DNA from: a virus
Virus record (IMG/VR): IMGVR_UViG_3300033149_005872
Coordinates: 1-24,119 of that record
Length of the DNA: 24,119 nucleotides
Reading direction: 5' to 3' (one strand)
Shown in pieces: positions 7,997 through 24,119 of this stretch. The first letter of the stretch is position 1; every line of letters starts with the position of its first letter. The position numbers and the translations under genes are program-made. The notes beneath the pieces were generated by a model that had not been told where the DNA came from, made no database searches, and was given only the letters and a program-made list of their open reading frames with translations.

Positions 7997-8851
7997 ATGA
8001 TTTGTAAAAAAAGAAAACCAGTTTTTATAATAGCAGAAGTGGGTATAAATCATAATGGCAATATAGAAATAGCTAAAAAATTAATAGACATTGCAATAAT
8101 TACAGGTTGTGATGCAGTAAAATTTCAAAAAAGGAATATAGATATTGTATACACACAAGAATATCTAAATTCACCACGAGAAAGCCCTTGGGGAATTACA
8201 AATAGAGAACAAAAGAAAGCTCTTGAATTTGGTTTTACAGAGTATACCAAAATTGATAAATATTGTAAGCAAAGAAAAATTCCTTGGTTTGCAAGTGTTT
8301 GGGATATATATTCATTGAAATTTATAGAACAATTTAATGTGCCTTTTCATAAAGTTGCTTCAGCTATGCTTTCAAATTTACCACTTATAAAAGAAATAGC
8401 TATGCGTGGTAAATATACATTTATCAGTACTGGAATGCATGATATGGAAGATATTGCAAAAGCAGTAAATATTTTTAGAAAATATAAGTGTCCTTTTGAA
8501 CTTATGTATTGCGTTTCAACTTATCCGTGTAGTAATGAAGAAGTAGATTTAAGTTGTATTAAAACATTAAAAGATACTTTTAAATGCGATGTTGGCTATT
8601 CAGGACATGAAAGAGGAATACAAATATCTACGGCTGCTGTTGCTTTGGGAGCAACTAGTGTGGAAAGACATGTGACGTTAGACCGTACATTATATGGAAG
8701 TGACCAAGCAGCAAGTTTAGAATTAGGAAGGTTTTCTACATTAGTAAGAGATATTCGTATTATTGAAAGATGTATGGGTAGTGGTAAAAAGAAAGTCTTA
8801 GAATCTGAACTTCCTATAAAAAGGAAACTTTGTTGGCATCTAAATAAATAA
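7997..8851 (+). CDS. neuB: NeuB-like nonulosonic acid synthase lacking the SAF domain
   Basis: The product has 284 residues; AAGGAG lies 10 bases before the ATG. It matches the NeuB TIM-barrel: AEVGINHNG (Gly16-Gly21), AVKFQ (41-44), a STGM strand, CVSTYPC..NEEVDLS, VGYSGHERG (His204) and ERHVTLDR (His225), then GSDQAASLE. The two His lie 21 residues apart, as do the metal-binding His of characterised NeuB enzymes. Family members usually run to about 340-350 residues with a C-terminal SAF (antifreeze-like) domain; here the protein ends shortly after the barrel, so that domain is absent. The reaction would join phosphoenolpyruvate to a mannosamine-type sugar or its 6-phosphate, giving a nine-carbon acid. 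KdsA has similar length but lacks these motifs. Confidence 0.85.
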   Translation: MICKKRKPVFIIAEVGINHNGNIEIAKKLIDIAIITGCDAVKFQKRNIDIVYTQEYLNSPRESPWGITNREQKKALEFGFTEYTKIDKYCKQRKIPWFASVWDIYSLKFIEQFNVPFHKVASAMLSNLPLIKEIAMRGKYTFISTGMHDMEDIAKAVNIFRKYKCPFELMYCVSTYPCSNEEVDLSCIKTLKDTFKCDVGYSGHERGIQISTAAVALGATSVERHVTLDRTLYGSDQAASLELGRFSTLVRDIRIIERCMGSGKKKVLESELPIKRKLCWHLNK

Positions 8852-8852
8852 A

Positions 8853-9392
8853 ATGGATTATTTTTACTTTTACAACAATATTATAGATACCCCTGGTAAG
8901 AATTGTTTAGGAAAATTTCTTCATTTAATAAATGGAAAATATGTACAAAAAGGAGGAATTGTAGGCGATTTTGGGTGTGGTAACGGTTATTCCGCTGGAA
9001 GGATACGAAGAAAATGGAAAATGGCATATGTAGGGATGGACATTTCCAAATATAGTATAAAAAATATAACTAAACCCGAAGTTTTACCTGTGATGGCAAA
9101 CATTTGCCAAGTTCCAATAAAAGATAGAAAATTTGATTTTGTTGTTTCTTGTCAGGTTTTAGAACATTTAACTGAAAAGGACATTTTTATATGTTTATCC
9201 GAAATGTACAGAACATTAAAACATAACAGATATGGTTTTATCTCTGTGGCATTAAAAATGGATAAATATAGGGCACATATTACTATTAAATCCTCAGAAT
9301 GGTGGAAGGAAATTATTGAGTCTGTGGGATTTTGTGTGAAGGAAATACATATGCTACAAAATTTTATTGTATACAAAAAGAAATGTGTATGA
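8853..9392 (+). CDS. Class I SAM-dependent methyltransferase
   Basis: The product has 179 residues. The start lies one base after the NeuB-like stop, with no clear Shine-Dalgarno site, so coupling is likely. Motif I is DFGCGNGYSAG (residues 39-49), an acidic residue ends the next strand (VGMDIS), and the post-motif is VVSCQVLEHL (Glu104, His105), followed by EMYRTLKHNRYGFISV. This is a compact Methyltransf_11-type fold. Its place inside the nonulosonate cassette suggests that it methylates the sugar or the glycan carrying it, but the substrate cannot be read from sequence. Confidence 0.75.
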   Translation: MDYFYFYNNIIDTPGKNCLGKFLHLINGKYVQKGGIVGDFGCGNGYSAGRIRRKWKMAYVGMDISKYSIKNITKPEVLPVMANICQVPIKDRKFDFVVSCQVLEHLTEKDIFICLSEMYRTLKHNRYGFISVALKMDKYRAHITIKSSEWWKEIIESVGFCVKEIHMLQNFIVYKKKCV

Positions 9393-10066
9393 AAAACATT
9401 ATAGTTTTAGGAAATGGAGAAAGCCGACTAAAATTCGATTTAAAAGAATTAAAAAAGTTAAAAATACCTATATGGGGCTGTAATGCCATTTATAGAGATA
9501 CTGAAAAAATTAATATAATAGCAACAGATAGACCATTAATGTTGGAAATTTTGAAATCGAAAAGATTAAAAAAAAATACATATTATTTTGATTTTGAAAC
9601 ATGGGAAGAAATAACAGATCCGAAACTTAAAAATATAAAAGGAATTCATTCATTAAACCCTCCTTATAAATATACAGACGTTATTGAAAAACGTAATACT
9701 GGAGCTTATGCAATTTATATAGTATCTTTTTTGTATAATCCTAAAAATATATTCTTATTTGGATTCGATTTTGGAAGTCCTGATGAAACTAAAATAAATA
9801 ATATATATTTTAATACTGTTAATTATAGAAAAAAAGGAGATAATAGGGTTTATTATCATAATCAAGTAAATGGTTCAAGATTATCAACCGCATTAGAAAA
9901 AATAAAAGGAATATTTAGAACTATTGATTTTTATCGAGTTGAATGTTTCTCTCCTCAATTAGAAAATTATAATTTCGGAGAAGATCTTTTAGCTCCTAAT
10001 ATAACATATAAACAATTTTTGGAGAAAATAAATGAGAATAGTAGTCAATCAAAATTTAAAATTTAA
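9389..10066 (+). CDS. GT42/DUF115-like protein, candidate nonulosonyl transferase
   Basis: The product is 225 residues from the ATG at 9389, which overlaps the previous TGA (ATGA); an upstream in-frame start at 9332 would add 19 residues that overlap the methyltransferase and is not favoured. The N-terminus IIVLGNGESRL and WGCNAIYRD match the nucleotide-binding start of GT42 sialyltransferases (compare AGNGPSL and RCNQFYF in Campylobacter CstII) and of DUF115 proteins. NTGAYAIYIV...IFLFGFDF parallels SGVYMC...IYLSGIDF of CstII. A DNRVYYH segment lies where CstII has its catalytic His region. Lying between NeuB-like and NeuA-like genes, it is a good candidate for CMP-nonulosonate transfer. The link is by remembered motifs, so remote homology should be tested. 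Confidence 0.55.
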   Translation: MKNIIVLGNGESRLKFDLKELKKLKIPIWGCNAIYRDTEKINIIATDRPLMLEILKSKRLKKNTYYFDFETWEEITDPKLKNIKGIHSLNPPYKYTDVIEKRNTGAYAIYIVSFLYNPKNIFLFGFDFGSPDETKINNIYFNTVNYRKKGDNRVYYHNQVNGSRLSTALEKIKGIFRTIDFYRVECFSPQLENYNFGEDLLAPNITYKQFLEKINENSSQSKFKI

Positions 10067-10589
10067 ATTAGAAGAGATTAAATTAATAGCTTTGGACTTC
10101 GATGGGGTCCTAACTGATAATAAAGCTATTCATCGGGAAGATGGAATGGAAAGTGTGTGTAGAAGTAAACTGGATAGTATGGGAGTAGACATATTAAATG
10201 ATGAAGGTTTATATAGTAAAAATCAATATAAATCTATTAAACATGAAATAGATATAGTAATTTTATCCAGAGAAATCAATCTTGTAGTGCAATCTGTTGC
10301 AAAAAAAATGAAAATCAAATGTCAACAAGCAGTCTATGATAAATTAAAAGCTTTGGAAAAAGAAGTAAAATTAAGAAAAATTAAAATGAAAAATGTATTA
10401 TTTATGGGAAACGATGTGAATGATATTCCTTGTATGAAAGCAGCTGGTGTAGGAATTGCTGTTCAGGATGCTCTACGCTCAGTGAAATTAGCGGCCGATT
10501 TTGTAACGTTTCGCAAAGGAGGAGATGGGGCTTTTCGAGAAGTTGTAGAAATGTTGATCTATGTAAAAAGACTGAAAGGGCGTTTTTAA
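10032..10589 (+). CDS. HAD phosphatase of the KdsC / NeuA C-terminal type
   Basis: The product has 185 residues; GGAGA lies six bases before the ATG, and the gene overlaps the previous one by 35 bases in another frame. HAD motif I is DFDGVLTDN (Asp22 nucleophile, Asp24), motif II the Ser of ILSRE, motif III a Lys in DKLKAL, and motif IV GNDVND (Asp128, Asp131). The C1 cap is minimal, as in KdsC and in the phosphatase domain fused to some NeuA proteins. Relative to those, the DGxGI loop reads LDSMGVDIL and is followed by an extra segment of about 15-20 residues. The likely reaction is removal of phosphate from a nonulosonate 9-phosphate between the NeuB-like and NeuA-like steps. Confidence 0.75.
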   Translation: MRIVVNQNLKFKLEEIKLIALDFDGVLTDNKAIHREDGMESVCRSKLDSMGVDILNDEGLYSKNQYKSIKHEIDIVILSREINLVVQSVAKKMKIKCQQAVYDKLKALEKEVKLRKIKMKNVLFMGNDVNDIPCMKAAGVGIAVQDALRSVKLAADFVTFRKGGDGAFREVVEMLIYVKRLKGRF

Positions 10590-10640
10590 ATAGAAAAATG
10601 AAAAAAATAATGTAGAAAATAAAAAAGAGAGGAGGCAAAA

Positions 10641-11288
10641 ATGGCTGTGACCATAATACCCGCTAGAGGCGGTAGCAGAGCAATAAAATTGAAAAATTTA
10701 CAATTAATAGATGGAAAACCATTATTAAAACACTCCATAGATGTTGCTAAAAAGTGTAAAGATATTTCTGAAATATACGTTACAACAGATTGTATTAAAA
10801 TTGCTACTTTTGCAGAGAAAGAAGGAGCTATTGCTGTAGAAGAAATAATAGAGGGAGAAGGTAATTCTGATAAAGCTCTTATAAATGTAATAACTAAGAA
10901 AAAATTGTATAATGAATGGATAATTTTTATGCAATGTACCAATGTTTTTCAAAAAGGAAAATGGATAGAAGAAGCTTTGCGTATCCTAAAAATGGGAGAA
11001 TTTAAATCAGCCGTCTCTGTAATAAAAAGTAATTATTATTCATGGGGTCCTAATTATAGATATATTCCATTAAATGATCATAGGTTAAGACAGGAACGGG
11101 ATCAATGGACAGAAAACGGGGCATTTTGGATTGCTGAGGGTGGTAATATATTACAATCAAAATATAGAGCACAAACCCCTGTTTATCTTTATGTCTGTCC
11201 TTGGTTTACTCAATTTGAAATAGATGAACCTAAAGATTTAATTTTAGTTGAGTTTATTTATAAAACCTTTTTCAAAAATAGTAGCTAA
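10641..11288 (+). CDS. neuA: NeuA-like CMP-nonulosonate cytidylyltransferase
   Basis: The product has 215 residues; AGAGGAGG lies just before the ATG. The signature IPARGGSR (residues 6-13) followed by KLKNL is the CTP-binding loop of NeuA/KdsB enzymes. IYVTTD, FMQCTNVF (usually QPTSPLR), WTENGAFWIA and FEIDEPKDL occur in the expected order; ENGA and the final IDEPxD fit NeuA better than KdsB. The enzyme would couple CTP to the nonulosonic acid to give the CMP-sugar donor in the cytoplasm. The change from QPTSP to QCTNV in the substrate loop may mark altered specificity. It closes the biosynthetic cassette and is followed by a 62-base A+T-rich gap before nrdD. Confidence 0.85.
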   Translation: MAVTIIPARGGSRAIKLKNLQLIDGKPLLKHSIDVAKKCKDISEIYVTTDCIKIATFAEKEGAIAVEEIIEGEGNSDKALINVITKKKLYNEWIIFMQCTNVFQKGKWIEEALRILKMGEFKSAVSVIKSNYYSWGPNYRYIPLNDHRLRQERDQWTENGAFWIAEGGNILQSKYRAQTPVYLYVCPWFTQFEIDEPKDLILVEFIYKTFFKNSS

Positions 11289-14300: not shown

Positions 14301-15712
14301 AATTTATAGGTGGAGAAAACGCTTTAACTAAAACTTTGAATAATAGAGTATACGAAATGAGTATTAGTTTTAAAAAAGGATTAACCGATGGTTATTTTGA
14401 TACAGATGGAGGTTCTTCTAAAAGAATATATACATCTAGTTCCAATTTGATAGATGATATGGCAACTTTAAATACAACTTTAGGTATGCCAATTAATATA
14501 ACAGAAGATAATAGAAAGAAATTTGAAGGCTCATATAGTAATAATCCTAATTATTGTATACGTCCTTATGAAAGAGTTTCTAAATACAAACGAAGAAAAG
14601 GATTTATATTTGAAAACAATAAATATTATTTTCAAATTAAAAATATTGATTATATATCTTATAATAAGTTAATTCCTGCGTATTGTTTTGAAATGGAAGA
14701 TAATAACAATCCTTATTTTACTTTAGCCAATGGCATCGAAACACATAATTGCAGGCTCTCCTTCAAATTAAATACTCAAGATATAGCTGAAGCAAAAACT
14801 CCCTGGAAAATGAGGTATTCGGCTTTGCAAAATGTTTCTATTAATTTACCGAGATTTGGATATGAAGCGCAAGGAGATGATACAACTTTATTTTCGTTAC
14901 TTTCCGATCGGGTGGAATTAGTTGCAAAGGCCCATATCCAGAAAAAACATTTCATTGAAAAATTATTAGCTCAAGGTAAGAATGGTCCTCTTGCTCTTCT
15001 TGTTATGGATAAAGATGGTGAACCTTATTTGCGTATGAATAAATTATCATATTTGGTTGGGATGGTTGGCCTAAATGAGCTTGTGCAAGCCCACACTGGA
15101 CAGGAAATGCATGAATCAAAAAGTGCTTTCAAATTTGGGTTGAAAGTTATATCTCATATGAAACTTATGGTTGACAAGTTATCTTCAGAATATAACATGC
15201 ATTTTGTATTAGAGCAAACACCAGCTGAAAGTACAAGTTATCGTTTTGCAAAGCTGGATATTAAACATTTTTCTCCAGACGCTGGTCACATAGTTAAAGG
15301 GAATATTCTAGAAGATGAAGTATATTATACGAACTCGACTTATCTTAATGGAAGCGTTCCAATTAATCCTATAGAACGAGTTAAACAAGAAGGACTATTT
15401 CATCCTTTAGTTGAAGCGGGGGCACTTACTCACATATGGGTAGGAGAATCAACCCCATCAAAAGAATCACTTGCTAATTTTGTGATTAAAACATTTAAAA
15501 TGACACAGAATGACCAAATTGCTTTTTCTCCAGAGTTTACTATTTGTAATAGTTGCTTAAAGACATCGAGAGGATTGCATGAAAAATGCCCAATTTGTTC
15601 ATCTCCAGACGTGGATGGGATAACGAGAATAACTGGATACTTTACAAAAATATCTAGTTGGAACAAGGGAAAAATAGGGGAATTGCATGACAGATTTAGA
15701 TTGGAGATATAA
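11351..15712 (+). CDS. nrdD: Anaerobic ribonucleoside-triphosphate reductase precursor with two inteins
   Basis: The precursor has 1453 residues; removal of both inteins leaves 716. The start has AAAAGGTGAG upstream. An ATP-cone-like N-terminus precedes the catalytic barrel (NANVPHNPEATNLTLA, HIHDLGF, LLAHMVKFSAALQGHFAGA, AVARGGQAIFSDINLYW, ISEC/CRL, PWKMRYSALQN). The C-terminus has a zinc site with Cys at precursor residues 1399, 1402, 1413 and 1416, and the glycyl-radical motif RITGY with Gly1429. The enzyme reduces NTPs to dNTPs under anoxia after activation by the radical-SAM enzyme NrdG, which is not in this window. Inteins occupy residues 192-597 and 803-1133. Residues 94-123 are exactly repeated at 124-153, unlike the usual single copy, and may affect folding. 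Confidence 0.9.
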   Translation: MKKNDATDLTMFVRTSQETIAHWDRNRIVDALVRETYVNIDTANTISREVEDLIKHSNISVITTPLIRELVDAKLIEHGLEKARIMHTRLGMPLYDVNQLIFNRNKENANVPHNPEATNLTLALYDVNQLIFNRNKENANVPHNPEATNLTLAENIKKEYALLNVFSQDVADAHMRGDIHIHDLGFCDRPYSFFRNEILIVKTPKDKIWVLPFEQLFEKITSEIKKEKEFEIKNTPGFFVADENGWVELKRIVRHKTEKPLITINSENGKTIITTSDHPFIKIKEDAKVIICPKCKSENVVKNGSIKKQKRSYLCKNCNRIFRIKIEEINVKDREIVSTEKINNRNFILTPKINCKNKNKSEIKEDMAYFIGYFIAEGFYGKNEVSIRTKEIELDKIKQILRNNKIKFGGNKERIRIYSKNFKDYLKDQLGIRRYSQNITLPFDFFEYNEKVINAMISGIIDGDGCIKTDKYVSEILIRLTSKALLSQMQTYFDSIGIRNYLTPIKDYGISIYKDKTIEGKLPLFCLRFYLTSKQKELFKFSEKINNKEFKETKVNREQKNYSQVKKIKEIKNDDPYVYDITTESGTFISSGVLVHNCSGQSLEYVKKYGLNLPNALSMAKPAKHPEVLLAHMVKFSAALQGHFAGAIGWDAVNLYFAPYITHMSSNEVRQLSQMLIFEYSQQAVARGGQAIFSDINLYWEVPSHLENVPAIGPGGEYTGKTYGAYEKDAQKFLWELFEVYKEGDGCGRPFFFPKPLLHITEKFFTTENHLEFLYHACDVASTKGNTYFVFDRGATAKISECCFHNTQKVLVKTSRGIRHDTIGKICRTYIKEIKVFHNGVFRKAKPVITKHDKFVKVTLSNGFKMFVTDNHLCPTYAGDKEAKFLTTNDFIPVNNIEFKGLNDKGTYFMGYFIGAYLGDGSCDHKGNNNGITFSLSKRKQKVINIITEFAKSFGAHITVRPENDKHIIFVKITSMTLKALILEFIGGENALTKTLNNRVYEMSISFKKGLTDGYFDTDGGSSKRIYTSSSNLIDDMATLNTTLGMPINITEDNRKKFEGSYSNNPNYCIRPYERVSKYKRRKGFIFENNKYYFQIKNIDYISYNKLIPAYCFEMEDNNNPYFTLANGIETHNCRLSFKLNTQDIAEAKTPWKMRYSALQNVSINLPRFGYEAQGDDTTLFSLLSDRVELVAKAHIQKKHFIEKLLAQGKNGPLALLVMDKDGEPYLRMNKLSYLVGMVGLNELVQAHTGQEMHESKSAFKFGLKVISHMKLMVDKLSSEYNMHFVLEQTPAESTSYRFAKLDIKHFSPDAGHIVKGNILEDEVYYTNSTYLNGSVPINPIERVKQEGLFHPLVEAGALTHIWVGESTPSKESLANFVIKTFKMTQNDQIAFSPEFTICNSCLKTSRGLHEKCPICSSPDVDGITRITGYFTKISSWNKGKIGELHDRFRLEI
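11628..11807 (+). repeat. Exact 90-bp tandem duplication inside nrdD
   Basis: Two head-to-tail copies, 11628-11717 and 11718-11807, are identical base for base. In frame they double the 30-residue block starting LYDVNQLIFN and ending TNLTLA. Family members, as I remember them, have this block once, followed directly by ENIKKEYALL. The absence of any substitution means it is very recent, or an assembly artefact. Confidence 0.9.
11924..13141 (+). other. Intein 1 in NrdD (406 residues, LAGLIDADG type, Ser1)
   Basis: The insert lies between CDRPY and the conserved CSGQSLE of NrdD. Its first residue is Ser and the C-terminal splice block ends VLVHN, with Cys as the +1 residue. Block B is TTSDHPF and block F is VYDITTESGTF. 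Two LAGLIDADG-like helices, GYFIAEGF near 12448-12485 and ISGIIDGDGC near 12720-12748, indicate a homing endonuclease; both keep an acidic residue. Between blocks B and C sits a zinc ribbon with CPKC and CKNC at 12224-12304, which is unusual. The insert is much more A+T-rich than its exteins. Splicing would join PY to CSG and restore the NrdD active-site Cys. Confidence 0.88.
13757..14749 (+). other. Intein 2 in NrdD (331 residues, LAGLIDADG type, Cys1)
   Basis: The insert lies between SEC and CRLSF; joining the flanks restores the SECCRL sequence of class III reductases. It starts with Cys (CFHNTQKVLV) and ends GIETHN followed by Cys +1. Block B is VTDNHL. LAGLIDADG-like motifs are GYFIGAYLGDGS near 14078-14117 and GLTDGYFDTDGGS near 14371-14416, both with the acidic residue kept. 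A mini-domain of about 85 residues separates the second motif from the C-terminal splice block. All splice-critical residues look intact, so splicing and homing are probably active. Confidence 0.88.
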
Positions 15713-16464
15713 TGATAATAAAAGATAATCCAAAAGTAGATATTATAATTGCCAATTATAATCATGCTGAATTTCTTCCAGATGCCATAGATTCTGTTTT
15801 GAATCAAACTTATTCTAATTGGAAACTTACAATTGTAGATGACTTTTCATCAGATGAAACAAGAAGAATAATTGATTTTTATTTGAGAAAAGATGATAGG
15901 GTAAATGTAATATATCATAATAAAAATAAAGGATATGGGGAAGCATTAATTACAGGAATAGAAAATACTAATAATCCTTTTATTGGTATTTTAGATTCTG
16001 ATGATTATCTTGAATCTAATGCTGTTTTTAGATCTCTTTTAGAATTTCAAAGAGCTAAAGGAATTTTAATGACTTATTCTATGATGCAGTTGTGCTCAGA
16101 TGATATAAATTGTCCTACTTCTCATTTTAATCCACCAGATAAATTTATAATTCCTAGTGGAAAAACTTTTTTAGATTTATGCCCAAAAGGATTTTCATTT
16201 TATTTAATTCAACATTTCAAAGTTTTTAAACGCAAAGCATATATAAAAACAGGAGGAATAAAAAGAAATTTAAGAAAAAGTGTAGATAAGGATATTATTT
16301 TTAAAATGGAGGAGGTAGGAAAAATAAAATTTATACCTGAAATCTTATATAGAAAAAGAACACATGCAAAACAAATTACTAAACTTTATAAACATAAACC
16401 TGAAATCATGAAACAAATTATGGAAGTAGTAAATGATGCAAAAAGAAGGAGAGGAATAATATGA
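15712..16464 (+). CDS. Family 2 (GT-A) glycosyltransferase, paralogue 1
   Basis: The product has 250 residues. The ATG overlaps the nrdD stop (TAATG) and GGAG lies just upstream. The GT2 start VDIIIANYNHAEFLPDAIDSVL is clear in two parts, followed by IVDDFSSDET and a KGYGEAL motif; the donor and metal-binding motif DSDD is at 95-98. A C-terminal segment (VDKDIIFKMEEVG..FIPEILYRKR) and the basic end AKRRRGII are shared with the paralogue at 17371, and the former also with 18127. GT2 enzymes transfer sugars from nucleotide donors in the cytoplasm. There are no membrane helices, so it is probably soluble. The acceptor is unknown. Confidence 0.85.
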   Translation: MIIKDNPKVDIIIANYNHAEFLPDAIDSVLNQTYSNWKLTIVDDFSSDETRRIIDFYLRKDDRVNVIYHNKNKGYGEALITGIENTNNPFIGILDSDDYLESNAVFRSLLEFQRAKGILMTYSMMQLCSDDINCPTSHFNPPDKFIIPSGKTFLDLCPKGFSFYLIQHFKVFKRKAYIKTGGIKRNLRKSVDKDIIFKMEEVGKIKFIPEILYRKRTHAKQITKLYKHKPEIMKQIMEVVNDAKRRRGII

Positions 16465-16790
16465 ATAGAGAAAAAAAAGAACAACCAAAAAGAATGGATA
16501 TCAAAGAATTTAGGGCTTTTGGATTTATACAAGAAATAAACAGGCAATTTTTACATCCTATGGGATTAGCTATAGAAGTTATTATAGATGAAAAAGGAAA
16601 TGAAACTTTAGGTGGAATTTGGGATTATAGGGATGACCCAAAAGGAATAACTTATGCAAAGGAAATAATGGCAACTAAAATAGCCAAAGAAAAGGCTGAT
16701 CGTGTCCAAGAATTTAAACGTGAAAAACACATGAGTAGGAAAAAAGCGTTAGGGTTCGTGATACAGCCAATAAAAAATGATAGAGAATAG
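16461..16790 (+). CDS. Conserved-looking small phage protein of unknown function
   Basis: The product has 109 residues; its ATG overlaps the previous TGA (ATGA). The sequence FGFIQEINRQFLHPMGLAIEV, read in two parts, then GGIWDYRDDPKGITY, has the look of a small hypothetical protein common in phage genomes, but I cannot give it a function. The N-terminus is basic and the C-terminal half is a Lys/Glu-rich helix. There is no signal or membrane segment. It sits between glycosyltransferase and methyltransferase genes, but its likely origin is the phage core rather than the glycan set. Confidence 0.6.
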   Translation: MNREKKEQPKRMDIKEFRAFGFIQEINRQFLHPMGLAIEVIIDEKGNETLGGIWDYRDDPKGITYAKEIMATKIAKEKADRVQEFKREKHMSRKKALGFVIQPIKNDRE

Positions 16791-17370
16791 AATAGACCCT
16801 TCTTTAGATAGACATTGGTATAAGATGATAAATGCAAAACATCATGCTATTGGGCTTTCTAAAATAGGAATTTATAATATATTTAAATATAAAAAAGTTT
16901 TGTATATAGGAGCTGGAGTTAGCTATGATAGATTTGAATTTGTTAAAATTTTGTATCCTTATAAAGATTTAACTATTATAGAGCCAAATTCAAAAAATGT
17001 TGACAGAAAAGTATCTTCTTATACCCTTAAAGGAATGTATCCATTAGCAAAAGTTATAAGATCATATTTAATAAATGTAAGAAGAATTTTAGGAGGTAAG
17101 AAGTTTGAATTAGGTATTTGGTGGCATGGTCCTGAACATATTCCTAAACGTGAACTATTAATTAATCTTACTGAATTTGAAAAGGTTATTACAAAATTTA
17201 TTTTATTGGGAGGCCCAAATCCATATATTCCTCAAGGGAGATTTTGTTCTTCTCCTATGTATCATTGGTATGGATTAGGAGAAATAGATTGGGAAAAATT
17301 AGGGTACAACCATATTGTTTATGGTAAAAAAAATAGATATTTAATAGCATGGAAAAATTTGGAGAAATAA
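16777..17370 (+). CDS. Methyltransferase-like protein with WWHGPEH motif, paralogue 1
   Basis: The product has 197 residues and overlaps the previous gene by 14 bases. A Rossmann-like start VLYIGAGVSYDRFEFV is followed by an acidic strand end (LTIIEPN), then the distinctive GIWWHGPEHIPKREL and a late strand before the C-terminal basic helix. The order resembles a class I methyltransferase in which GPEH replaces the usual EHL post-motif. A paralogue with the same WWHGPEH block is encoded at 20599. The proteins sit among glycosyltransferases, so sugar methylation is plausible, but the weak glycine motif leaves open a non-catalytic or other nucleotide-binding role. Confidence 0.6.
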   Translation: MIENRIDPSLDRHWYKMINAKHHAIGLSKIGIYNIFKYKKVLYIGAGVSYDRFEFVKILYPYKDLTIIEPNSKNVDRKVSSYTLKGMYPLAKVIRSYLINVRRILGGKKFELGIWWHGPEHIPKRELLINLTEFEKVITKFILLGGPNPYIPQGRFCSSPMYHWYGLGEIDWEKLGYNHIVYGKKNRYLIAWKNLEK

Positions 17371-18126
17371 ATGTTAAATAAAAAAAAGGAAAGTTTTAAT
17401 GTGAATCCCACATTTGATATTATAATGTGTTGCTTCAATAACGAAAAATATATAGAGGAAGCAATAGAATCTGTTCTTAAACAAACATATCCTTATTGGG
17501 AATTAATTCTTATTGATGATTTTTCTCAAGACAATAGTAGAGAAATTATTAAAAAATATTGTGAAAATTATTTAAATATACATGCCTCTTTTAAAGAAAA
17601 AAATGGGGGATACGGAGGAGCCATGAATTTGGGAATTTCTATTTTACAAGGAGAACTTATAGCATTAGTAGATGGTGATGATTGGATTTTTCCAAATGCT
17701 CTTGAAATAATGGTAAAAGCTCATAAGGATTATCCCAATGCTGCTTTAATTTATTCTAAATATGTAATTTGCAATGAAAAATTAAAAGCAAAACATTTAG
17801 GAAGGTCTGATTCTTTAGAAGGAAAATCTATATTAGAGGCTTGGGCAGATCCTAATGGCCCTCGAATGAGTCATCTTAAAACTTTCAAAAGGAAATTTTA
17901 TAATATGACTAAGGGGGTAAATCCAAAACTTAGAAAAGCTGTTGACAAGGATTTAGTTCTGAAATTAGAAGAAGTAGGGGATGTGATCTTTATCCCAGAA
18001 ATTTTATATAAACACAGACGACATAAAAATACAATATCTTATAAATATCGATCTCGCCCTGATATATGTAAAATGATCAAAGATAGACTCATAAGAAATG
18101 CAAAAAGAAGAAGAGGATTATTATAA
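17371..18126 (+). CDS. Family 2 (GT-A) glycosyltransferase, paralogue 2
   Basis: The product has 251 residues; GGAG precedes an ATG placed right after the previous TAA. The GT2 core is intact: FDIIMCCFNNEKYIEEAIES, LIDDFSQDNS, GGYGGAMN and the metal-binding VDGDDW. As in paralogue 1, the C-terminal part has VDKDLVLKLEEVG, FIPEILYKHRRH and the ending AKRRRGLL. The two are clearly related throughout, so they arose by duplication. An inserted PNGPRMSHLKTFKR region in the middle of the C-terminal half differs from paralogue 1 and may set acceptor choice. Cytoplasmic, metal-dependent, donor unknown. Confidence 0.85.
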   Translation: MLNKKKESFNVNPTFDIIMCCFNNEKYIEEAIESVLKQTYPYWELILIDDFSQDNSREIIKKYCENYLNIHASFKEKNGGYGGAMNLGISILQGELIALVDGDDWIFPNALEIMVKAHKDYPNAALIYSKYVICNEKLKAKHLGRSDSLEGKSILEAWADPNGPRMSHLKTFKRKFYNMTKGVNPKLRKAVDKDLVLKLEEVGDVIFIPEILYKHRRHKNTISYKYRSRPDICKMIKDRLIRNAKRRRGLL

Positions 18127-18897
18127 ATGGAATCAATAGGATTTTCCATTCTGATTACAGCCTATAATTCTGAAAAATTTATAGAACAATCAATAAAATC
18201 AGCATTAAGACAAAGTTATGAAAATAGTGAAATAATAATAGTAGAAGATGGTTCTACTGATCATACTATATCTGTTATAAAAAGATTTGAAAAAAATAGA
18301 AAGGTTAAAATATATTATAATGATAAGAATAGAGGGTATGGATATGCTTTAAGAAAAGCTTTTTCTCATGCTACAAAGCAATATGCTGTTATTTTGGATT
18401 CTGATGATATGTTAATGAAAAAGGCTTTAAAAATTATGTCTATATATATTAAAAAAAATAGAGACTATGCCTTATATCATTCCAAAAGACTTACTATAAA
18501 TGAAAAAGGAATCATTGACAGAAGAAGACAAATAAAACAAGAGTTTTATAATTTAGGAAATTCAAAATATATTGACCATTTAAGACGAAGAGAAAAATCT
18601 GGTATAAGTCATTTAAAAGTAGTAAATATGAAATTTTATAATAAGACAGATGGTGTATCCCCTTTATTAGGTAAAAAAATAGATAAAGATTTAATAGCAA
18701 AACTAGAAGAAGTAGGTAAATTTTATTTTGTTGATGAATTTTTATATCTTTATAGGAGATGGGAAGGAACAATGTCTTCCAGATTTAAAAAAATTGTTGG
18801 AAAAACAAAAGTGGTGGAATTAGGAAGAAAAATTAATGATATTATTATTGTAAATGCAGAATTAAGAAGAATATTAAAAAATGAAAATCTTTCTTGA
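18127..18897 (+). CDS. Family 2 (GT-A) glycosyltransferase, paralogue 3
   Basis: The product has 256 residues and starts directly after the previous stop codon. GT2 motifs are FSILITAYNSEKFIEQSIKS, IVEDGSTDHT, RGYGYALR and the metal site LDSDDM. It shares GISHLKVVNMKFY and IDKDLIAKLEEVG..FVDEFLYLYRR with paralogue 2, but lacks the AKRRRG end, having a longer Lys-rich tail instead. It is the most diverged of the three. Two GT2 genes placed end to end suggest sequential addition of similar sugars to one glycan. Confidence 0.85.
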   Translation: MESIGFSILITAYNSEKFIEQSIKSALRQSYENSEIIIVEDGSTDHTISVIKRFEKNRKVKIYYNDKNRGYGYALRKAFSHATKQYAVILDSDDMLMKKALKIMSIYIKKNRDYALYHSKRLTINEKGIIDRRRQIKQEFYNLGNSKYIDHLRRREKSGISHLKVVNMKFYNKTDGVSPLLGKKIDKDLIAKLEEVGKFYFVDEFLYLYRRWEGTMSSRFKKIVGKTKVVELGRKINDIIIVNAELRRILKNENLS

Positions 18898-19855
18898 TCC
18901 AAAAGCTGATCGACATAGAATGTCTAATAGAATGAAACCCCATTGGAATTCAATGGGAATAAAGTATTCTAATAATCCAAAAAAATGTGATGTTCAATTG
19001 TGCTTTGGAACTATTCAAACTCCAACTAATCTCCCCAAAATTGTAAGATTAGATGGAGTTTACTACGATACAGATAGAGATTATCATACAAAAAACAAAA
19101 GTATGATTGAAGCAATTAATCAATGTAAAGGAATAATTTATCAAAGTAAATGGGGAAAAAAGATGGCTAAACATTATTTATTTCCTCCCAAAAATATTCC
19201 TTCAATTATTATTTATAACGGAGCAGATGATTGGTGGAGTGGAGAAAAAGAAAAACACAATAATATAAATATTGTTTCCACTGCAAAATGGAGGAGACAT
19301 AAGAGACTTCAAGAGCTGTGTAAAGCTTTTATAAAATACAAAGAAGTTTTGTCTTGTCATTCTTTCACTAATAAATCACCAAAATTATATATTATAGGGC
19401 CAATTAGAGATAGAAAAGGTTCCAAATTAATTCCAGATATTGATATCATTTATTTAGATAAGATGAATTATAAAGAAATTGCTGAAGTATATAGAAAATG
19501 TGATATATTTCTTCATGCATCTAAAAGAGATTGTTGCCCATGTGCTGTTGTTGAAGCTATTGCAGCACATTTGAAAATTGTAACTACTATAGGCTGCGGA
19601 GGGGCAGTAGAATTGGTAAAAAAAGGAGGAGAAGGTGTTTGTGGAGAAGTTGTGAAAATTGATTGTGTATGTTGGAAGCCTGTGGCCCATTACAGAGATG
19701 AATGGAATATATGGAATGAAGAAGAGGAAAAGAAATATGTTGATGGAATGATTGAAGCTACGAAGAAAATAAATGAAGATTTTCTTTTTCCAGAAGAACT
19801 TTCGACTGAATTTATGGCAAGGGCATATGGGAATTTCCTAAAGAAATGTATATAG
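18881..19855 (+). CDS. GT4-like (GT-B) glycosyltransferase
   Basis: The product has 324 residues; its start lies 17 bases inside the previous gene in a different frame. GT-B features are visible: an N-terminal domain with RLDGVYY and YQSKWGKKM, the linker STAKWRRHKRLQELCKAF, and a C-terminal nucleotide-binding half with DIFLHASKRDCCPCAVVEA. The last segment corresponds to the GT4 E-x7-E motif, but the first Glu is replaced, so the pair reads D...E. There is no membrane helix. It is rather short for GT4. Transfer of a hexose-type sugar onto the same glycan as its GT2 neighbours is the likely role; donor and linkage unknown. Confidence 0.75.
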   Translation: MKIFLDPKADRHRMSNRMKPHWNSMGIKYSNNPKKCDVQLCFGTIQTPTNLPKIVRLDGVYYDTDRDYHTKNKSMIEAINQCKGIIYQSKWGKKMAKHYLFPPKNIPSIIIYNGADDWWSGEKEKHNNINIVSTAKWRRHKRLQELCKAFIKYKEVLSCHSFTNKSPKLYIIGPIRDRKGSKLIPDIDIIYLDKMNYKEIAEVYRKCDIFLHASKRDCCPCAVVEAIAAHLKIVTTIGCGGAVELVKKGGEGVCGEVVKIDCVCWKPVAHYRDEWNIWNEEEEKKYVDGMIEATKKINEDFLFPEELSTEFMARAYGNFLKKCI

Positions 19856-19900
19856 TAGGATAATATATAAAGTAGAAAACTTATAAAAAGGAAAATATAA

Positions 19901-20602
19901 ATGAAAGGTGAAAAAAAAGAAGGATTAATTTCAAAAGAAGTTAGAAAAAGAGCGAAATATATGAAACATTGTCATGTGATGGCTGCTAAAAAACAAAGAT
20001 TTATTAGGTATTATGAAAATTATAATGAATATTTTAACAGACTTATTAAAATGGAAGAAAAAATTATTTGTCCTTTTTCATTTAGTAAAAGAAAAAACAG
20101 AATGAGGACTATATCCGATTTATGGTTATGTCTTCCTTTTTTAAAAGGAAAATCTGTATTAGATATAGGAACTAGAGATTTTTATATTTTGAATGCTTTA
20201 AAATATAATAATAAAAAATGGAAAGTAAAAGGAATAGATGTTAGTTGGAAACAACAGAGATTTTATTCAGCTTATTACAGAATTCCTTTTCAATTTGCAG
20301 ATATTAATTTAAATATGATAAATGAAACATTTGATTTTATTATTTGTAGGCATGTTATAGAACACACATATTCTCCAAGAGATGTTTTGATGAATATATA
20401 TGGAATGCTTAAAGAAGAAGGAATAGTATTATTGGAAGTACCAAGTAAAGAAAGAATGAAAAAAGGATGTTTACAAAAAGCACACTCTTGGGCGTGGACC
20501 GCTGAAGGATTTAAAAAGCTATGTGAAAGATATTTTGAATGTGTACAGTTTTTTATAATAAGTGATGATATTGTATTTATAGGACGAAGAAAGGAATTAT
20601 GA
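19901..20602 (+). CDS. SAM-dependent methyltransferase with basic N-terminal extension
   Basis: The product has 233 residues; AAAAAGG lies upstream of the ATG. Residues 1-75 are Lys/Arg/Tyr-rich helices; the Rossmann core then starts with SVLDIGTRDFYIL, a GIDVS acidic strand end, ICRHVIEHTYSPRDVL and the late strand EEGIVLLEVPS, followed by a Trp-rich block (HSWAWTAEGF). This is a Methyltransf_11-like enzyme in which motif I reads DIGTRD rather than GxGxG. The IEH post-motif and loop order are normal. The substrate is unknown; its place beside glycosyltransferases suggests sugar methylation. Confidence 0.7.
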   Translation: MKGEKKEGLISKEVRKRAKYMKHCHVMAAKKQRFIRYYENYNEYFNRLIKMEEKIICPFSFSKRKNRMRTISDLWLCLPFLKGKSVLDIGTRDFYILNALKYNNKKWKVKGIDVSWKQQRFYSAYYRIPFQFADINLNMINETFDFIICRHVIEHTYSPRDVLMNIYGMLKEEGIVLLEVPSKERMKKGCLQKAHSWAWTAEGFKKLCERYFECVQFFIISDDIVFIGRRKEL

Positions 20603-21186
20603 AATTTCATATAAAAAACAAAAAATGTAAATGGGGAATAAAAGGGAAAAAAATAGATATGTTGGGATTTATAAATCATTATATCAAAAATCCTTTTTCT
20701 TATAAAAAAGTATTAAATATAGGAAGTGAAGGAAACTTTTCTTTTTCTTCAGAAATATATTCAAACGCTTCTTATGTTGTAATAATAGAACCCTTTTGTG
20801 GGTATATGAAATCAAATGAAAAAAATGCAGAAAAACAAAAAAATGAAATTGATATTAAAATAATAAGAACATTTGCTATAAATGTTGGAAAAATATTTAA
20901 AGGAAAAGTATTTAATCTCTGTTTTTGGTGGCATGGTCCTGAGCATATAGAAAGAGACGAATTAAAAATAAATCTTATTGAATTAGAAAAAGTAACTTCT
21001 GATTTAATTTTAATTGGTTGTCCGTGGGGGAAGTATTATCAAAAAGAAAAGGGGGAAAATATATATCAAAAACATCTTAGTTTTTTGTATGAAAAAGATT
21101 TCACTAATTTAGGATATAAAGTAGCTGTAATAGGAACTAGAGATAAAAAACGTGGAAGGTTATTAGCATGGAAGTATATAAAGTAA
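20599..21186 (+). CDS. Methyltransferase-like protein with WWHGPEH motif, paralogue 2
   Basis: The product has 195 residues; its ATG overlaps the previous TGA (ATGA). Like the protein at 16777 it has a Rossmann-like strand (KVLNIGSEGNFSF), an acidic strand end (VVIIEPFCG), and NLCFWWHGPEHIERDELKIN followed by a late strand and a basic tail ending AWKYIK, where paralogue 1 ends AWKNLEK. The glycine motif differs between the paralogues (GAG versus GSEG), so both may be divergent SAM-binding domains. Their wide separation in the island, with shared ends, indicates duplication followed by shuffling. Function inferred only. Confidence 0.6.
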   Translation: MKFHIKNKKCKWGIKGKKIDMLGFINHYIKNPFSYKKVLNIGSEGNFSFSSEIYSNASYVVIIEPFCGYMKSNEKNAEKQKNEIDIKIIRTFAINVGKIFKGKVFNLCFWWHGPEHIERDELKINLIELEKVTSDLILIGCPWGKYYQKEKGENIYQKHLSFLYEKDFTNLGYKVAVIGTRDKKRGRLLAWKYIK

Positions 21187-22229
21187 TTCATATATTCGAT
21201 AAACAAGATCAGATTCCTGCTATGATAAATGAAGGTTTAATTGAACATCATGGATTTATTCCCTTTTTTTATAACGATGTAATTAGTATAGGACAACGAA
21301 TAAAAAAGAGAATTAAAAATACAAAAGAAGAAATGTTAAATTGTGACTTTATTATTTTAAGGGATTTTATTATACCTAAATCTGGTAAAAATAAATTTTT
21401 TAAAGTAATTAATCACATAAATAAATTTGATTTATGGTACAAAGTAATCTATTATGATCAATTAGATAATAATGGAATTGACCAAGATATTTTAAACAAG
21501 TGTTTTTTATATTGCAAAAGAACTTGGCATAAAAAAATGCAGAATATGAACAAATTTATTTTACCTTTTGGATTTGGAGCACTCAATGCTTATTATAAAA
21601 TGAAAATTAAAAAACCAAAGAGAAAAATAGATTTATTATGTACTCTTCCTTTTAGAAATCCAGGAAGAATACATGTATTAGAAACATTACAAAGGCAAAA
21701 ATGGAAAGGATATAATGTTCAAATTGGTGATTTAACAATGTCTAAAAAGAGAGGAAGGAATGCTATATGGAAAATTAAACAGAAAGGAGTTATATCTTTA
21801 TGGAAATTATATTTTAATTGGATGAATTCTGCAAAAATAATTTTTACTGCTTATCCAGGAAAAGGAAGAAAAAATGGGGATAGTAGAACTTGGGAAGCAA
21901 TGAGTAGTGGTGCGTTGGTTTTTATGGATATTACTGATATGCCAACTGAAAATTATTTTGAACATGGGAAACATTGTTTTAAATTTGATGCTTTTTGTAT
22001 AAAATCAATTAATAAAGCCATTGAAAAGGCAAAAGAAATGTTAGAAAACAATAAATTAAGACAAAAAATAGCTTTAGAAGGATATAACCATACAAAAAAA
22101 TATCATAGTAGCCTTTCTAGAGTTGATTTTTTATATAGAGCAATTCAAGCAGTAAAAAATAATACTCAATCTGAATTTTTAAATTTATTATTAAAAGATT
22201 TTAATGAAAAAAATAAAGGAAATTTTTAA
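21168..22229 (+). CDS. CgeB-like GT-B glycosyltransferase, paralogue 1
   Basis: The product has 353 residues and begins 19 bases inside the previous gene. The C-terminal half has the pattern KIIFTAYPGKGR...DSRTWEAMSSGALVFMD, then ENYFEHGKHCFKFD, as in CgeB/Glyco_trans_1_2 proteins, where a R-x-W/F-E-A-x-ASG-type motif binds the nucleotide sugar. A basic KKRGRNAIWK stretch precedes it. The N-terminal domain begins YKVIHIFDKQDQIPAMINEGL. The final helix (KYHSSLSRVDFLYRAI) resembles that of the next gene. It is soluble and probably retains GT-B activity; donor and acceptor are unknown. Confidence 0.75.
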   Translation: MEVYKVIHIFDKQDQIPAMINEGLIEHHGFIPFFYNDVISIGQRIKKRIKNTKEEMLNCDFIILRDFIIPKSGKNKFFKVINHINKFDLWYKVIYYDQLDNNGIDQDILNKCFLYCKRTWHKKMQNMNKFILPFGFGALNAYYKMKIKKPKRKIDLLCTLPFRNPGRIHVLETLQRQKWKGYNVQIGDLTMSKKRGRNAIWKIKQKGVISLWKLYFNWMNSAKIIFTAYPGKGRKNGDSRTWEAMSSGALVFMDITDMPTENYFEHGKHCFKFDAFCIKSINKAIEKAKEMLENNKLRQKIALEGYNHTKKYHSSLSRVDFLYRAIQAVKNNTQSEFLNLLLKDFNEKNKGNF

Positions 22230-23323
22230 TGTATAAAGTATACCATATTTTCCCAAAAAACAAAGGACAACTTCCTATAATGTTAAATGAAGGACTTTTT
22301 AACCATAAAGAATTTATTCCTTTCTTTGCAAATGATTTTGTTGTCTTGGGAAAAACTATACAAAAAAAAGAAGAAGATTTTGAAAAAATATTAGATAACT
22401 GCGATTTCATTTTTATGTACGATAGAGAAGTTATAAAAAAAGAAGACAACTTATTATGTATATTAAATTTAATTAATAAAAAAAATTTATGGAATAAAGT
22501 AATTTATTTCCACCAAACAAGATATGCAGAACCTAGAGAAGATATATATAAAAAATGTTTTGCTTACTTTAAAACCATTTGGAGAGAAAAATTTATAAAT
22601 AGGGATTACCCAATTTTCCCTTTTCCTTATGGTATATTAGATGCTACTTTAAATATAAAATTAGAAAAACATCATAGAAACATTGATATTTTATGTACTT
22701 TAACAAGAGGACAGACACTATATAATACTAAAAGAATTAATGTTCTAAATTCCTTAAAAGAAGAAGATTGGGAAGGTTTTGTAGTGGGTTTAAGAAAAAT
22801 ATTTATATGTAAAAGACATGGAAGAAACGCTCCTTGGTATGACCCAAAAACAGAAGGAAAAGGATGGGTTAAATATATTCATTTAATGAATTCTTCCAAA
22901 ATTATTTTTACAGCTAGACCCTCAGATCCAAAAAATATAGGGAATTGGGGAGGAGAAGATTATAGAAGTTGGGAAGCCTTATCAAGTGGAGCACTAATTT
23001 TTATGGATCACCCAAATACACCATCTCAAAATTATTTTGAACATGGGAAACATTGTTTTTTCTTTGATGGTTTAAATAAAAAATCTATAAAGAAATCTAT
23101 TAATATGGCAAAAGATTTATTACATGGGAAAGGGGAAGATAAAAGAAGAAAAATAGCTTTAAATGGATATAATCATGCCATTAAATATCATAATAGTAAA
23201 GCTAGAATAAATTTTATATTAAAAGCTATTAAATCAGTAGAAAACAATACATATAAACATCTAATAAATTCTATTTTAGATGAGTTTGAAAAATTAAAGG
23301 CAAAAAATAAATCTAAAATGTAA
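22229..23323 (+). CDS. CgeB-like GT-B glycosyltransferase, paralogue 2
   Basis: The product has 364 residues; its ATG overlaps the preceding TAA (TAATG). It matches the previous protein end to end: YKVYHIFPKNKGQLPIMLNEGL, HRNIDILCTL, RHGRNAPW, NSSKIIFTARPSD, YRSWEALSSGALIFMD and NYFEHGKHCFFFD. Compared with paralogue 1 it has an extra acidic and Trp-bearing segment (NIGNWGGEDY) just before the donor motif. This is a tandem duplication that has diverged well beyond DNA similarity. The most likely role is addition of the same or a related sugar at another position of the glycan. Confidence 0.75.
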   Translation: MYKVYHIFPKNKGQLPIMLNEGLFNHKEFIPFFANDFVVLGKTIQKKEEDFEKILDNCDFIFMYDREVIKKEDNLLCILNLINKKNLWNKVIYFHQTRYAEPREDIYKKCFAYFKTIWREKFINRDYPIFPFPYGILDATLNIKLEKHHRNIDILCTLTRGQTLYNTKRINVLNSLKEEDWEGFVVGLRKIFICKRHGRNAPWYDPKTEGKGWVKYIHLMNSSKIIFTARPSDPKNIGNWGGEDYRSWEALSSGALIFMDHPNTPSQNYFEHGKHCFFFDGLNKKSIKKSINMAKDLLHGKGEDKRRKIALNGYNHAIKYHNSKARINFILKAIKSVENNTYKHLINSILDEFEKLKAKNKSKM

Positions 23324-23352
23324 AAAATTTTATTGAAAAAAGGAGAAAATAA

Positions 23353-23910
23353 TTGTTGCTAATTGATATTGGAGGTCAGAAAAATCGAAGGGACTTGGGC
23401 ATATGGAAAATTATGGATAAATCTTCAAAAGTGGAATATCCAATTGATCTGAATAAAGCAAAAAAAATGGAAATAGAAGATAATATTGTTGATGCTATTT
23501 TTACTTCTCATACAGCAGAACATTTAGAACCGTACAGACTTAAATGGTTTTTTAAAGAAATTTATAGAATTTTAAAAAAAGGAGGGATTCTTAGAATAGT
23601 AGTTCCAGACTTTGGAAAGGCATTACAAAAGTATATAGAAGGAGATTACAAGTGGATAAGTAGAAAAGGAAATCCTACTAAATGGAAAGATTTACCAAAG
23701 ATTCCTATTTGCTATCTCCAATCATGGATATATACTCCTTTTAGTGGTCATCGTGTAGGCTTTGATGGTAAATTTTTAACTTATCTTTTAAAAAAATCTG
23801 GTTTTAGAAAAATTAAAAAATGTCAATATAATATTTGTCATAAAGTTTTTAGAGGTAAAGACTATGGCAGATATGAAAATAATTCCCTCTTTTATGAGGC
23901 CATAAAATAA
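23353..23910 (+). CDS. COG4627-like methyltransferase
   Basis: The product has 185 residues and starts at TTG, chosen because AGGAG ends seven bases upstream. The visible core is PIDLNKAKKMEIEDNIVDAIFTSHTAEHLEPYRLKWFFKEIYRILKKGGILRIVVPDF in consecutive blocks, the classic second half of a class I methyltransferase with TAEHLEP. The N-terminus LLIDIGGQKNRRDLG replaces the usual GCG motif with IGGQ, so SAM binding may be altered. A later Trp/Tyr-rich segment (CYLQSWIYTPFSGHR) may bind an acceptor. It is followed 13 bases later by a partial paralogue. Confidence 0.7.
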   Translation: MLLIDIGGQKNRRDLGIWKIMDKSSKVEYPIDLNKAKKMEIEDNIVDAIFTSHTAEHLEPYRLKWFFKEIYRILKKGGILRIVVPDFGKALQKYIEGDYKWISRKGNPTKWKDLPKIPICYLQSWIYTPFSGHRVGFDGKFLTYLLKKSGFRKIKKCQYNICHKVFRGKDYGRYENNSLFYEAIK

Positions 23911-23923
23911 AGGAGAATAGAAA

Positions 23924-24119
23924 ATGTTAATATTAAAAACGGATGAAAAATGGGAATCTTTTTGTTTTACTAAATTTGCAGATTTTTCAATGAATTTCAA
24001 TAAGATAGACAAGTTCCCTAAAGAAAGTTTCTCAACAGATGCTATCTATTGTTCTAATATAGCAGAAAGAATTGAGCCTTATAAAATTGTGTGGTTTTTT
24101 TCTGAAATATATCGTATAT
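23924..24119 (+). CDS. Partial methyltransferase-like gene, paralogue of the preceding gene
   Basis: The frame opens at an ATG behind AAGGAG and runs off the window end after 65 codons. The last visible part, SNIAERIEPYKIVWFFSEIYRI in consecutive blocks, lines up with SHTAEHLEPYRLKWFFKEIYRI of the gene just upstream, showing a tandem duplication. The usual AEH is changed to AER. The N-terminal region (LKTDEKWESFCF) does not show a glycine-rich SAM motif, so the copy may be divergent or inactive. The 3' end is outside the window. Confidence 0.6.
   Translation, partial: MLILKTDEKWESFCFTKFADFSMNFNKIDKFPKESFSTDAIYCSNIAERIEPYKIVWFFSEIYRI

Follow-up and report, generated by a model that had tools for sequence, protein, structure and literature searches.

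According to our analysis of a 24,119-base stretch of DNA (bases 1 to 24119 of the linear IMG/VR record IMGVR_UViG_3300033149_005872, which comprises 30,907 bases and is incomplete at both ends; here called the window), an uncultivated bacterial virus devotes at least 18 kb to sugar-assembly genes. These form an island that extends from 7997 to about 30.3 kb of the record, and so beyond the window end. On balance, we read it as an operon-like island of late genes for glycan assembly in a siphovirus-type phage; it would be based on a nonulosonic (sialic-acid-like) sugar and act on an acceptor that can be reached from the cytoplasm, and its product is probably a methylated sugar chain on the phage's own particle or on the host surface. 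A phage-borne glycan island with duplicated gene families, as proposed in the initial annotation of this DNA, is supported by both gene content and paralogy. The island stands out by its combination of genes and its number of paralogues, not by the presence of nonulosonate genes.

Gene content of the island

On a single strand, the tail genes are followed by an M15 peptidase gene, genes for holin-like proteins and, directly downstream of these tail and lysis genes, the island, whose genes are spaced by −35 to +62 bp (Table 1). The initial annotation had drawn its limits at 15712 to 24119, where sugar genes are indeed found, but this start lies 7.7 kb too late and leaves out the nonulosonate genes at 7997 to 11288. 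Past the window end, the record continues with genes for an FkbM methyltransferase, a GmhA/SIS-domain protein, and a glutaredoxin-like protein.

TABLE 1 Island genes located in the window, with the evidence for each assignment (SAM, S-adenosylmethionine; aa, amino acids)
Feature	Coordinates	Strand	Evidence
NeuB-family nonulosonate synthase, 284 aa, without C-terminal SAF domain	7997..8851	+	Pfam NeuB 2e-69; NCBIfam NeuB_NnaB 252 bits (cut-off 400); PDB 6ncs E 1e-45; 60% to viral L227
Class I SAM methyltransferase	8853..9392	+	Pfam Methyltransf_11 3e-15
Maf/GT42(CstII)-like putative nonulosonate transferase, copy A	9374..10066	+	AlphaFold model pLDDT 68; VIA-align Z 10.9 to Maf 5mu5
KdsC/KDN-9-phosphatase-like HAD phosphatase	10032..10589	+	NCBIfam KdsC and KDN-9-PPhBT, 76 bits each, below cut-offs; PDB KdsC-type matches
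CMP-nonulosonate cytidylyltransferase (NeuA/PseF-like)	10641..11288	+	Pfam CTP_transf_3 3e-16; PseF 54 bits, below cut-off; PDB NeuA E 5e-11
GT2 glycosyltransferase a (gt2a)	15712..16464	+	Pfam Glycos_transf_2 4e-29; paralogues
Small protein, phrog_3954, no function assigned	16461..16790	+	PHROG E 2e-14
WWHGPEH protein 1 (wwh1), class I SAM-methyltransferase fold	16777..17370	+	Sister of WWHGPEH protein 2 (99/95); fold
GT2 glycosyltransferase b (gt2b)	17371..18126	+	Pfam Glycos_transf_2 1e-35
GT2 glycosyltransferase c (gt2c)	18127..18897	+	Pfam Glycos_transf_2 5e-31
GT4-type glycosyltransferase	18881..19855	+	Pfam Glycos_transf_1 4e-13
Methyltransf_23 methyltransferase	19901..20602	+	Pfam 1e-15
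WWHGPEH protein 2 (wwh2)	20599..21186	+	Model pLDDT 87.9; Foldseek NodS, EvdMO1, and DhpI methyltransferases, E ~1e-7
CgeB-like glycosyltransferase 1 (cgeB1)	21168..22229	+	Pfam Glyco_trans_1_2 8e-10
CgeB-like glycosyltransferase 2 (cgeB2)	22229..23323	+	Pfam Glyco_trans_1_2 9e-10; 44% to copy 1
Methyltransf_11 methyltransferase a (mt11a)	23353..23910	+	Pfam 8e-8
Methyltransferase b (mt11b), start only, SAM motif I lost	23924..24119	+	Complete in L006:17148-17687; 50% over 159 aa to mt11a

Nonulosonate genes and their possible acceptor

The segment from 7997 to 11288 encodes a NeuB, a methyltransferase, a Maf/CstII-like protein, a HAD phosphatase of the KdsC/KDN-9-phosphatase type, and a NeuA/PseF-like cytidylyltransferase. 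NeuB, the phosphatase, and the cytidine monophosphate (CMP)-sugar synthetase make up a probable nonulosonate pathway, which would deliver a CMP-activated, sialic-acid-like sugar; the active-site residues of NeuB, namely the Glu of AEVG and two His residues (in GYSGHERG and ERHVTLD), are conserved. On the basis of structure comparison, the product of 9374 to 10066 (copy A) is deemed a putative Maf/CstII-like transferase: with VIA-align, its model scored Z 10.9 against Maf 5mu5, 9.8 against CstII 1ro8, and 9.2 against the P. multocida sialyltransferase, followed by MptE/HPPK at 8.8 and the next row at 5.9; the first two matches cover 155 to 179 residues. Foldseek alone gave weak matches, no Pfam match to copy A exceeded the cut-off, and a PDB sequence search with the two Maf-like proteins came back empty. 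The second of these, at 28148 to 29131, is 28.5% identical to copy A over 242 residues (E 3e-23) and adds a fifth paralogous pair outside the region first annotated; a candidate third copy at 24464 to 25300 was rejected, as profile comparison did not support it. Copy A also belongs to a widespread viral family of at least 53 loci (L126-L178) with the motifs VxGNGESR...WGCNAIYRD, which by fold match may be Maf/sialyltransferase-like.

In the proposed route, the transferases (Maf/CstII-like, GT2, GT4, and CgeB-like) would assemble a short glycan and cap it, and the battery of methyltransferases would decorate it. None of the island proteins contains a strong hydrophobic segment (two short upstream proteins score 2.2 to 2.5), and no flippase, polymerase, ABC exporter, initiating transferase, or GtrA/GtrB-type membrane protein was recognized in the island. 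Since all the enzymes are thus apparently soluble and no gene for export or polymerization was recognized, the acceptor would most likely be reachable from the cytoplasm, which is also favored by the precedent of Maf-type enzymes, acting in the cytoplasm, where they O-glycosylate flagellin with N-acetylneuraminic acid (Neu5Ac) or 3-deoxy-D-manno-octulosonic acid (Kdo); NeuB/FlmG is likewise a cytoplasmic route of protein glycosylation (PMC7591256). Virion proteins have, in our judgment, close to an even chance of being that acceptor. More tentatively, the phage could carry a self-contained system in which the Maf-like transferases attach a methylated, nonulosonate-containing glycan to its virion proteins, a viral counterpart of flagellin sialylation; the WWHGPEH methyltransferases, which many environmental viruses encode, would then be a component of such systems borne largely by viruses. 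The benefit to the phage may lie in receptor masking, evasion of defenses, or superinfection exclusion.

A host envelope glycan, such as lipooligosaccharide exported by host machinery, is a somewhat less probable acceptor than virion proteins. Similarly, we give about a one-in-three standing to the broader explanation in which the island alters the host surface (lipooligosaccharide, O-antigen, or capsule) in the manner of lysogenic-conversion gtr cassettes and blocks superinfection, a lipid-linked core being extended in the cytoplasm and exported by host transporters. A position just after the lysis genes, such as that of the island, is common for conversion genes; enzymes of the GmhA and KdsC types are typical of lipopolysaccharide pathways, and a bacterial polysaccharide locus (L307) combines ABC exporter-like genes with several GT2s of the same subgroup as those of the island. 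However, the membrane proteins, flippase, polymerase, and initiating transferase mentioned above were not recognized, nor was an integrase in the approximately 41 kb of joined contigs, where the Pfam scan covered part of the open reading frames (ORFs). The GT2s match the PHROG "GtrB-like" family over the catalytic part only and none has a hydrophobic segment, and the island does not correspond to a Gtr-type serotype conversion cassette, with its GtrA/GtrB membrane proteins and specific transferase. That the glycosyltransferases and methyltransferases act on the DNA of the phage as hypermodification enzymes, and not on protein or envelope, is very improbable: phage glycosyltransferases often act on DNA (PMC12619734), but no pyrimidine-modifying enzyme was recognized, and enzymes of the NeuB/NeuA, FkbM, and GmhA types are glycan enzymes.

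Several observations weigh against the cytoplasmic nonulosonate system that we prefer. Its NeuB lacks the SAF (antifreeze-like) domain, the NCBIfam profile match stopping at position 273 of 329, and in characterized NeuB enzymes an arginine of this domain completes the active site of the partner (PMC7591256); comparably short are the NeuB of the viral contig L227 (290 residues, 60% identical) and the solved 6ncs chain (290 residues). The NCBIfam scores of NeuB, KdsC, and PseF are all below the curated cut-offs, and as no equivalog cut-off was reached for Neu5Ac, pseudaminic acid, Kdo, or 2-keto-3-deoxynononic acid (KDN), the scores single out no particular sugar. Among the sequenced genes we saw neither a UDP-GlcNAc 2-epimerase nor another source of the NeuB substrate, so that the pathway would need a supply from the host or from genes in parts not yet sequenced. 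Furthermore, the copy A model is of modest confidence (pLDDT 68) and, the record being incomplete, export genes may lie elsewhere.

Number, age, and origin of the paralogues

Four duplicated families had been pointed out in the initial annotation (three GT2s and two each of WWHGPEH proteins, CgeB-like proteins, and methyltransferases), and all are present as intact, closely spaced plus-strand ORFs. By BLASTP, identities are 37% over 248 residues for gt2a and gt2b (E 1e-51), 34% over 249 for gt2b and gt2c (E 4e-40), 31% over 217 for gt2a and gt2c (E 1e-25), 40% over 174 for wwh1 and wwh2 (E 5e-26), and 44% over 358 for cgeB1 and cgeB2 (E 1e-94); the tandem methyltransferases align with E 5e-57. 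The stretch from 8 to 28 kb holds four paralogous families with five extra copies. Among 107 non-redundant viral loci, each of at least 15 kb and gathered by GT2, NeuB, WWHGPEH, and Maf/GT42-like queries, stretches of about 20 kb had at least five extra copies in no case and at least four families in three, figures which are descriptive only, given that glycan genes are overrepresented in the set and that the choice of window came after the fact.

Identities of about 30 to 50%, dN values of 0.47 to 0.80, and synonymous sites near saturation indicate that the duplications are old, and at least part of them would have taken place within the phage lineage. The sole close relative, a sister contig that is 99.8% identical (IMG/VR 3300033141_004054; 36,978 bases), carries the same set of gene copies, so there is no sign of current variability or copy-number change. 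The repeats had been taken to suggest a long or variable glycan, and neither attribute is borne out: the duplications are old and the copies of the sister contig the same, one methyltransferase copy has lost its SAM-binding motif, and copies may differ in role. Presumably, the diverged copies use different sugar positions or acceptors.

As for the idea that the phage evolves its glycan by duplication, it holds to a different extent for each family. Duplication within the phage is well supported for the pair wwh1 and wwh2, sisters in the tree (99/95), and is likely for the CgeB pair and the tandem methyltransferases. The two cgeB genes are adjacent and keep a 230-bp stretch of DNA at 74% identity; at the search sensitivity used, named phages, plasmids, and viral contigs gave no full-length relative, nor did a set of 16 viral records, and 247 genomes yielded one partial match only. 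The mt11b gene leaves the window into a 21-base gap of N (24120 to 24140) and is complete in the near-identical sister contig. Its motif I reads LKTDE in place of IDIGG, and the AEH motif lacks its conserved His, so that, judging from its residues, mt11b may be inactive as a methyltransferase.

For the GT2 triplet, in-phage duplication is likely at best, since bacterial GT2s are equally close and tree support does not exceed 71/76. The two shared patterns are looser than first described: KDL-x2-KLEEVG is fully kept by gt2b and gt2c, with KDIIFKMEEVG in gt2a, and ILY-x-HRR is matched exactly by gt2b alone. In the relaxed form KD[LI]xxK[LM]EEVG, the first pattern is found in 2 of 28 bacterial, plasmid, and named-phage GT2s and in none of 33 viral GT2s; it therefore characterizes a GT2 subgroup that includes bacterial proteins and, as both carriers are bacterial, was rejected as proof of in-phage duplication. 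A wide tree pairs gt2a with gt2b (87/87) and places gt2c apart from them, beside a bacterial row (84/68), a three-way clade not being rejected (p-AU 0.26). In a focused tree, all three form one clade (71/76) nested with bacterial GT2s in a well-supported group (95/96). They are 34 to 39% identical to proteins from the phyla Bacteroidota (L179) and Planctomycetota (L189), as close as to each other; given this kinship and the common motif, they are members of a GT2 subgroup that also serves in surface-glycan loci of bacteria. The place of gt2c in the wide tree and the weak clade support would fit separate acquisitions of related bacterial genes, yet we regard such an origin of some of the families as less likely than not: the three-way GT2 clade is recovered in the focused tree, the WWHGPEH copies are sisters, and the CgeB and mt11 copies are adjacent and each closest to its own partner.

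The WWHGPEH family

A model of a WWHGPEH protein (pLDDT 87.9) has the Rossmann fold of class I SAM methyltransferases. The fold search returned 1207 PDB matches at E ≤0.001; all 50 among the matches listed are methyltransferases, and the best include NodS and EvdMO1, both of which act on sugars. WWHGPEH proteins are accordingly predicted class I SAM methyltransferases by fold, which is not in itself proof of activity; profile comparison with the neighboring Methyltransf_23 protein gave E 0.017 only, so the link to methyltransferases comes from the fold. Scanning for the pattern [IF]WWHGPE identified 37 viral loci, against 11 from some 85,000 species genomes; these 11 are distant relatives (27 to 44% identical) on mostly archaeal or uncultivated-genome contigs; one of them, L179, matches the viral contig L025 with equal score and length. 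Frequent neighbors in other viral contigs are GT2, GT1/4, methyltransferase, and sulfotransferase genes, the WWHGPEH gene adjoining a GT2 gene in L026 and L033 and being fused to one in L054. In the phage fragment L009 (7079 to 8191), a single protein among head-completion-like genes contains two WWHGPEH domains, and its gene stands beside sulfotransferase-, methyltransferase-, and glycosyltransferase-like genes, in a glycan cassette.

Spread in viruses and search for a bacterial source

NeuB relatives occur at no fewer than 196 candidate loci in viral contigs and in only three named-phage records. Among 79 NeuB loci, the fetched flanks hold a NeuA-like gene in 26, a gt2b-like GT2 gene in 15, and a GmhA-like gene in 5. 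Virus-borne nonulosonate genes, judging by the frequency of NeuB and NeuA, are thus frequent, and this phage is no exception in having them. Regarding sialic-acid islands of phages or virion sialylation, we found nothing direct in the literature, in a search that covered few subscription papers.

A bacterial locus with the same genes in the same order, named in the initial annotation as the sign of a recently captured host operon, was not found among the 11 genomic WWHGPEH loci or the GT2 loci examined, a limited sampling; apart from generic GT2s, no other family of the window accompanies the 11 WWHGPEH genes. Recent capture of a surface-glycan operon, as opposed to an island evolved in the phage, is thus improbable. 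In its favor, the GT2s sit among bacterial GT2s, and the GC content of the island (24 to 32%) is somewhat below that of the long tail genes (33 to 36%). Besides the missing syntenic locus, it is countered by the WWHGPEH relatives, which come mostly from viruses and in genomes do not exceed 44% identity, and by the CgeB pair, which lacks full-length relatives in viral contigs, phages, plasmids, and sampled genomes.

Phage context

Judged by gene content, the source is a tailed, siphovirus-like phage; it has no DNA-level match in the named-phage collection. The sister contig differs from the record at scattered positions only and adds 10.7 kb upstream, where the capsid gene (HK97-like), the tape-measure gene, and further tail genes are located. 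The tail protein encoded at 563 to 4096 has a Kelch-repeat region N-terminal to its Rcc01698-like part, possibly a receptor-binding addition. From 11351 to 15712, the window encodes a class III anaerobic ribonucleotide reductase (NrdD) with two intein-type insertions (Pfam Intein_splicing 8e-23, plus LAGLIDADG_3 and Hom_end matches). Within nrdD, a perfect 90-bp tandem duplication (11628 to 11808) is single-copy in the sister contig and is either a strain difference or an assembly artifact. In the record L005, a GIY-YIG/NUMOD3 homing-endonuclease-like ORF (10319 to 11122) and a short ORF with a NUMOD3 motif (15277 to 15687) lie within and after the island, respectively.

Comparison with known systems and implications

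Bacterial surface-polysaccharide or O-antigen loci, such as L307 of Bacteroidota and L215 on a Gloeothece plasmid, resemble the island in having several GT2 paralogues of the same subgroup together with methyltransferases, sulfotransferases, or nucleotide-sugar enzymes. They differ in that the island has the WWHGPEH family, most of whose known loci are viral, whereas L307 has ABC exporter-like and nucleotide-sugar dehydratase/epimerase genes (read from translations), none of which was recognized in the sequenced island. With the nonulosonate glycosylation of flagellin in Caulobacter, Campylobacter, and Geobacillus, which uses NeuB with Maf or FlmG, the island shares a NeuB-type synthase, a cytidylyltransferase, a Maf-fold transferase, and possibly a cytoplasmic protein acceptor; unlike those systems, it is phage-borne, has no flagellin, has a NeuB without SAF, and includes additional GT2, CgeB-like, and methyltransferase genes. 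The KDN pathway of Bacteroides thetaiotaomicron (BT1713-BT1715) has the same triple of synthase, KDN-9-phosphatase/KdsC-type HAD phosphatase, and cytidylyltransferase, but the island proteins score below the curated cut-offs and would be putative counterparts only.

The viral contig L227, which unites NeuB, NeuA, and a GT29 sialyltransferase, is similar in its NeuB (60% identical), NeuA (40%), methyltransferases, and GT2, and differs in using GT29; WWHGPEH and the CgeB pair were not detected there. Its GT29 gene (9341 to 9967; Pfam 5e-27) is of the eukaryotic type and lies beside NeuB and NeuA. Mycobacteriophage virion glycosylation likewise involves phage glycosyltransferases, in an unrelated host, and we know of no nonulosonate pathway reported for it. 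The glycosyltransferases of these phages have been connected with capsid and tail-tube glycans (Freeman et al. 2023, as cited in PMC12619734).

The island offers a set of small soluble enzymes with directly testable products, and the WWHGPEH motif can serve as a marker for locating such islands in viral metagenomes. If our reading is true, phages, besides cells, make sialic-acid-type sugars, and this would matter for the masking of receptors by phages, their avoidance of defenses, or their recognition by other organisms.

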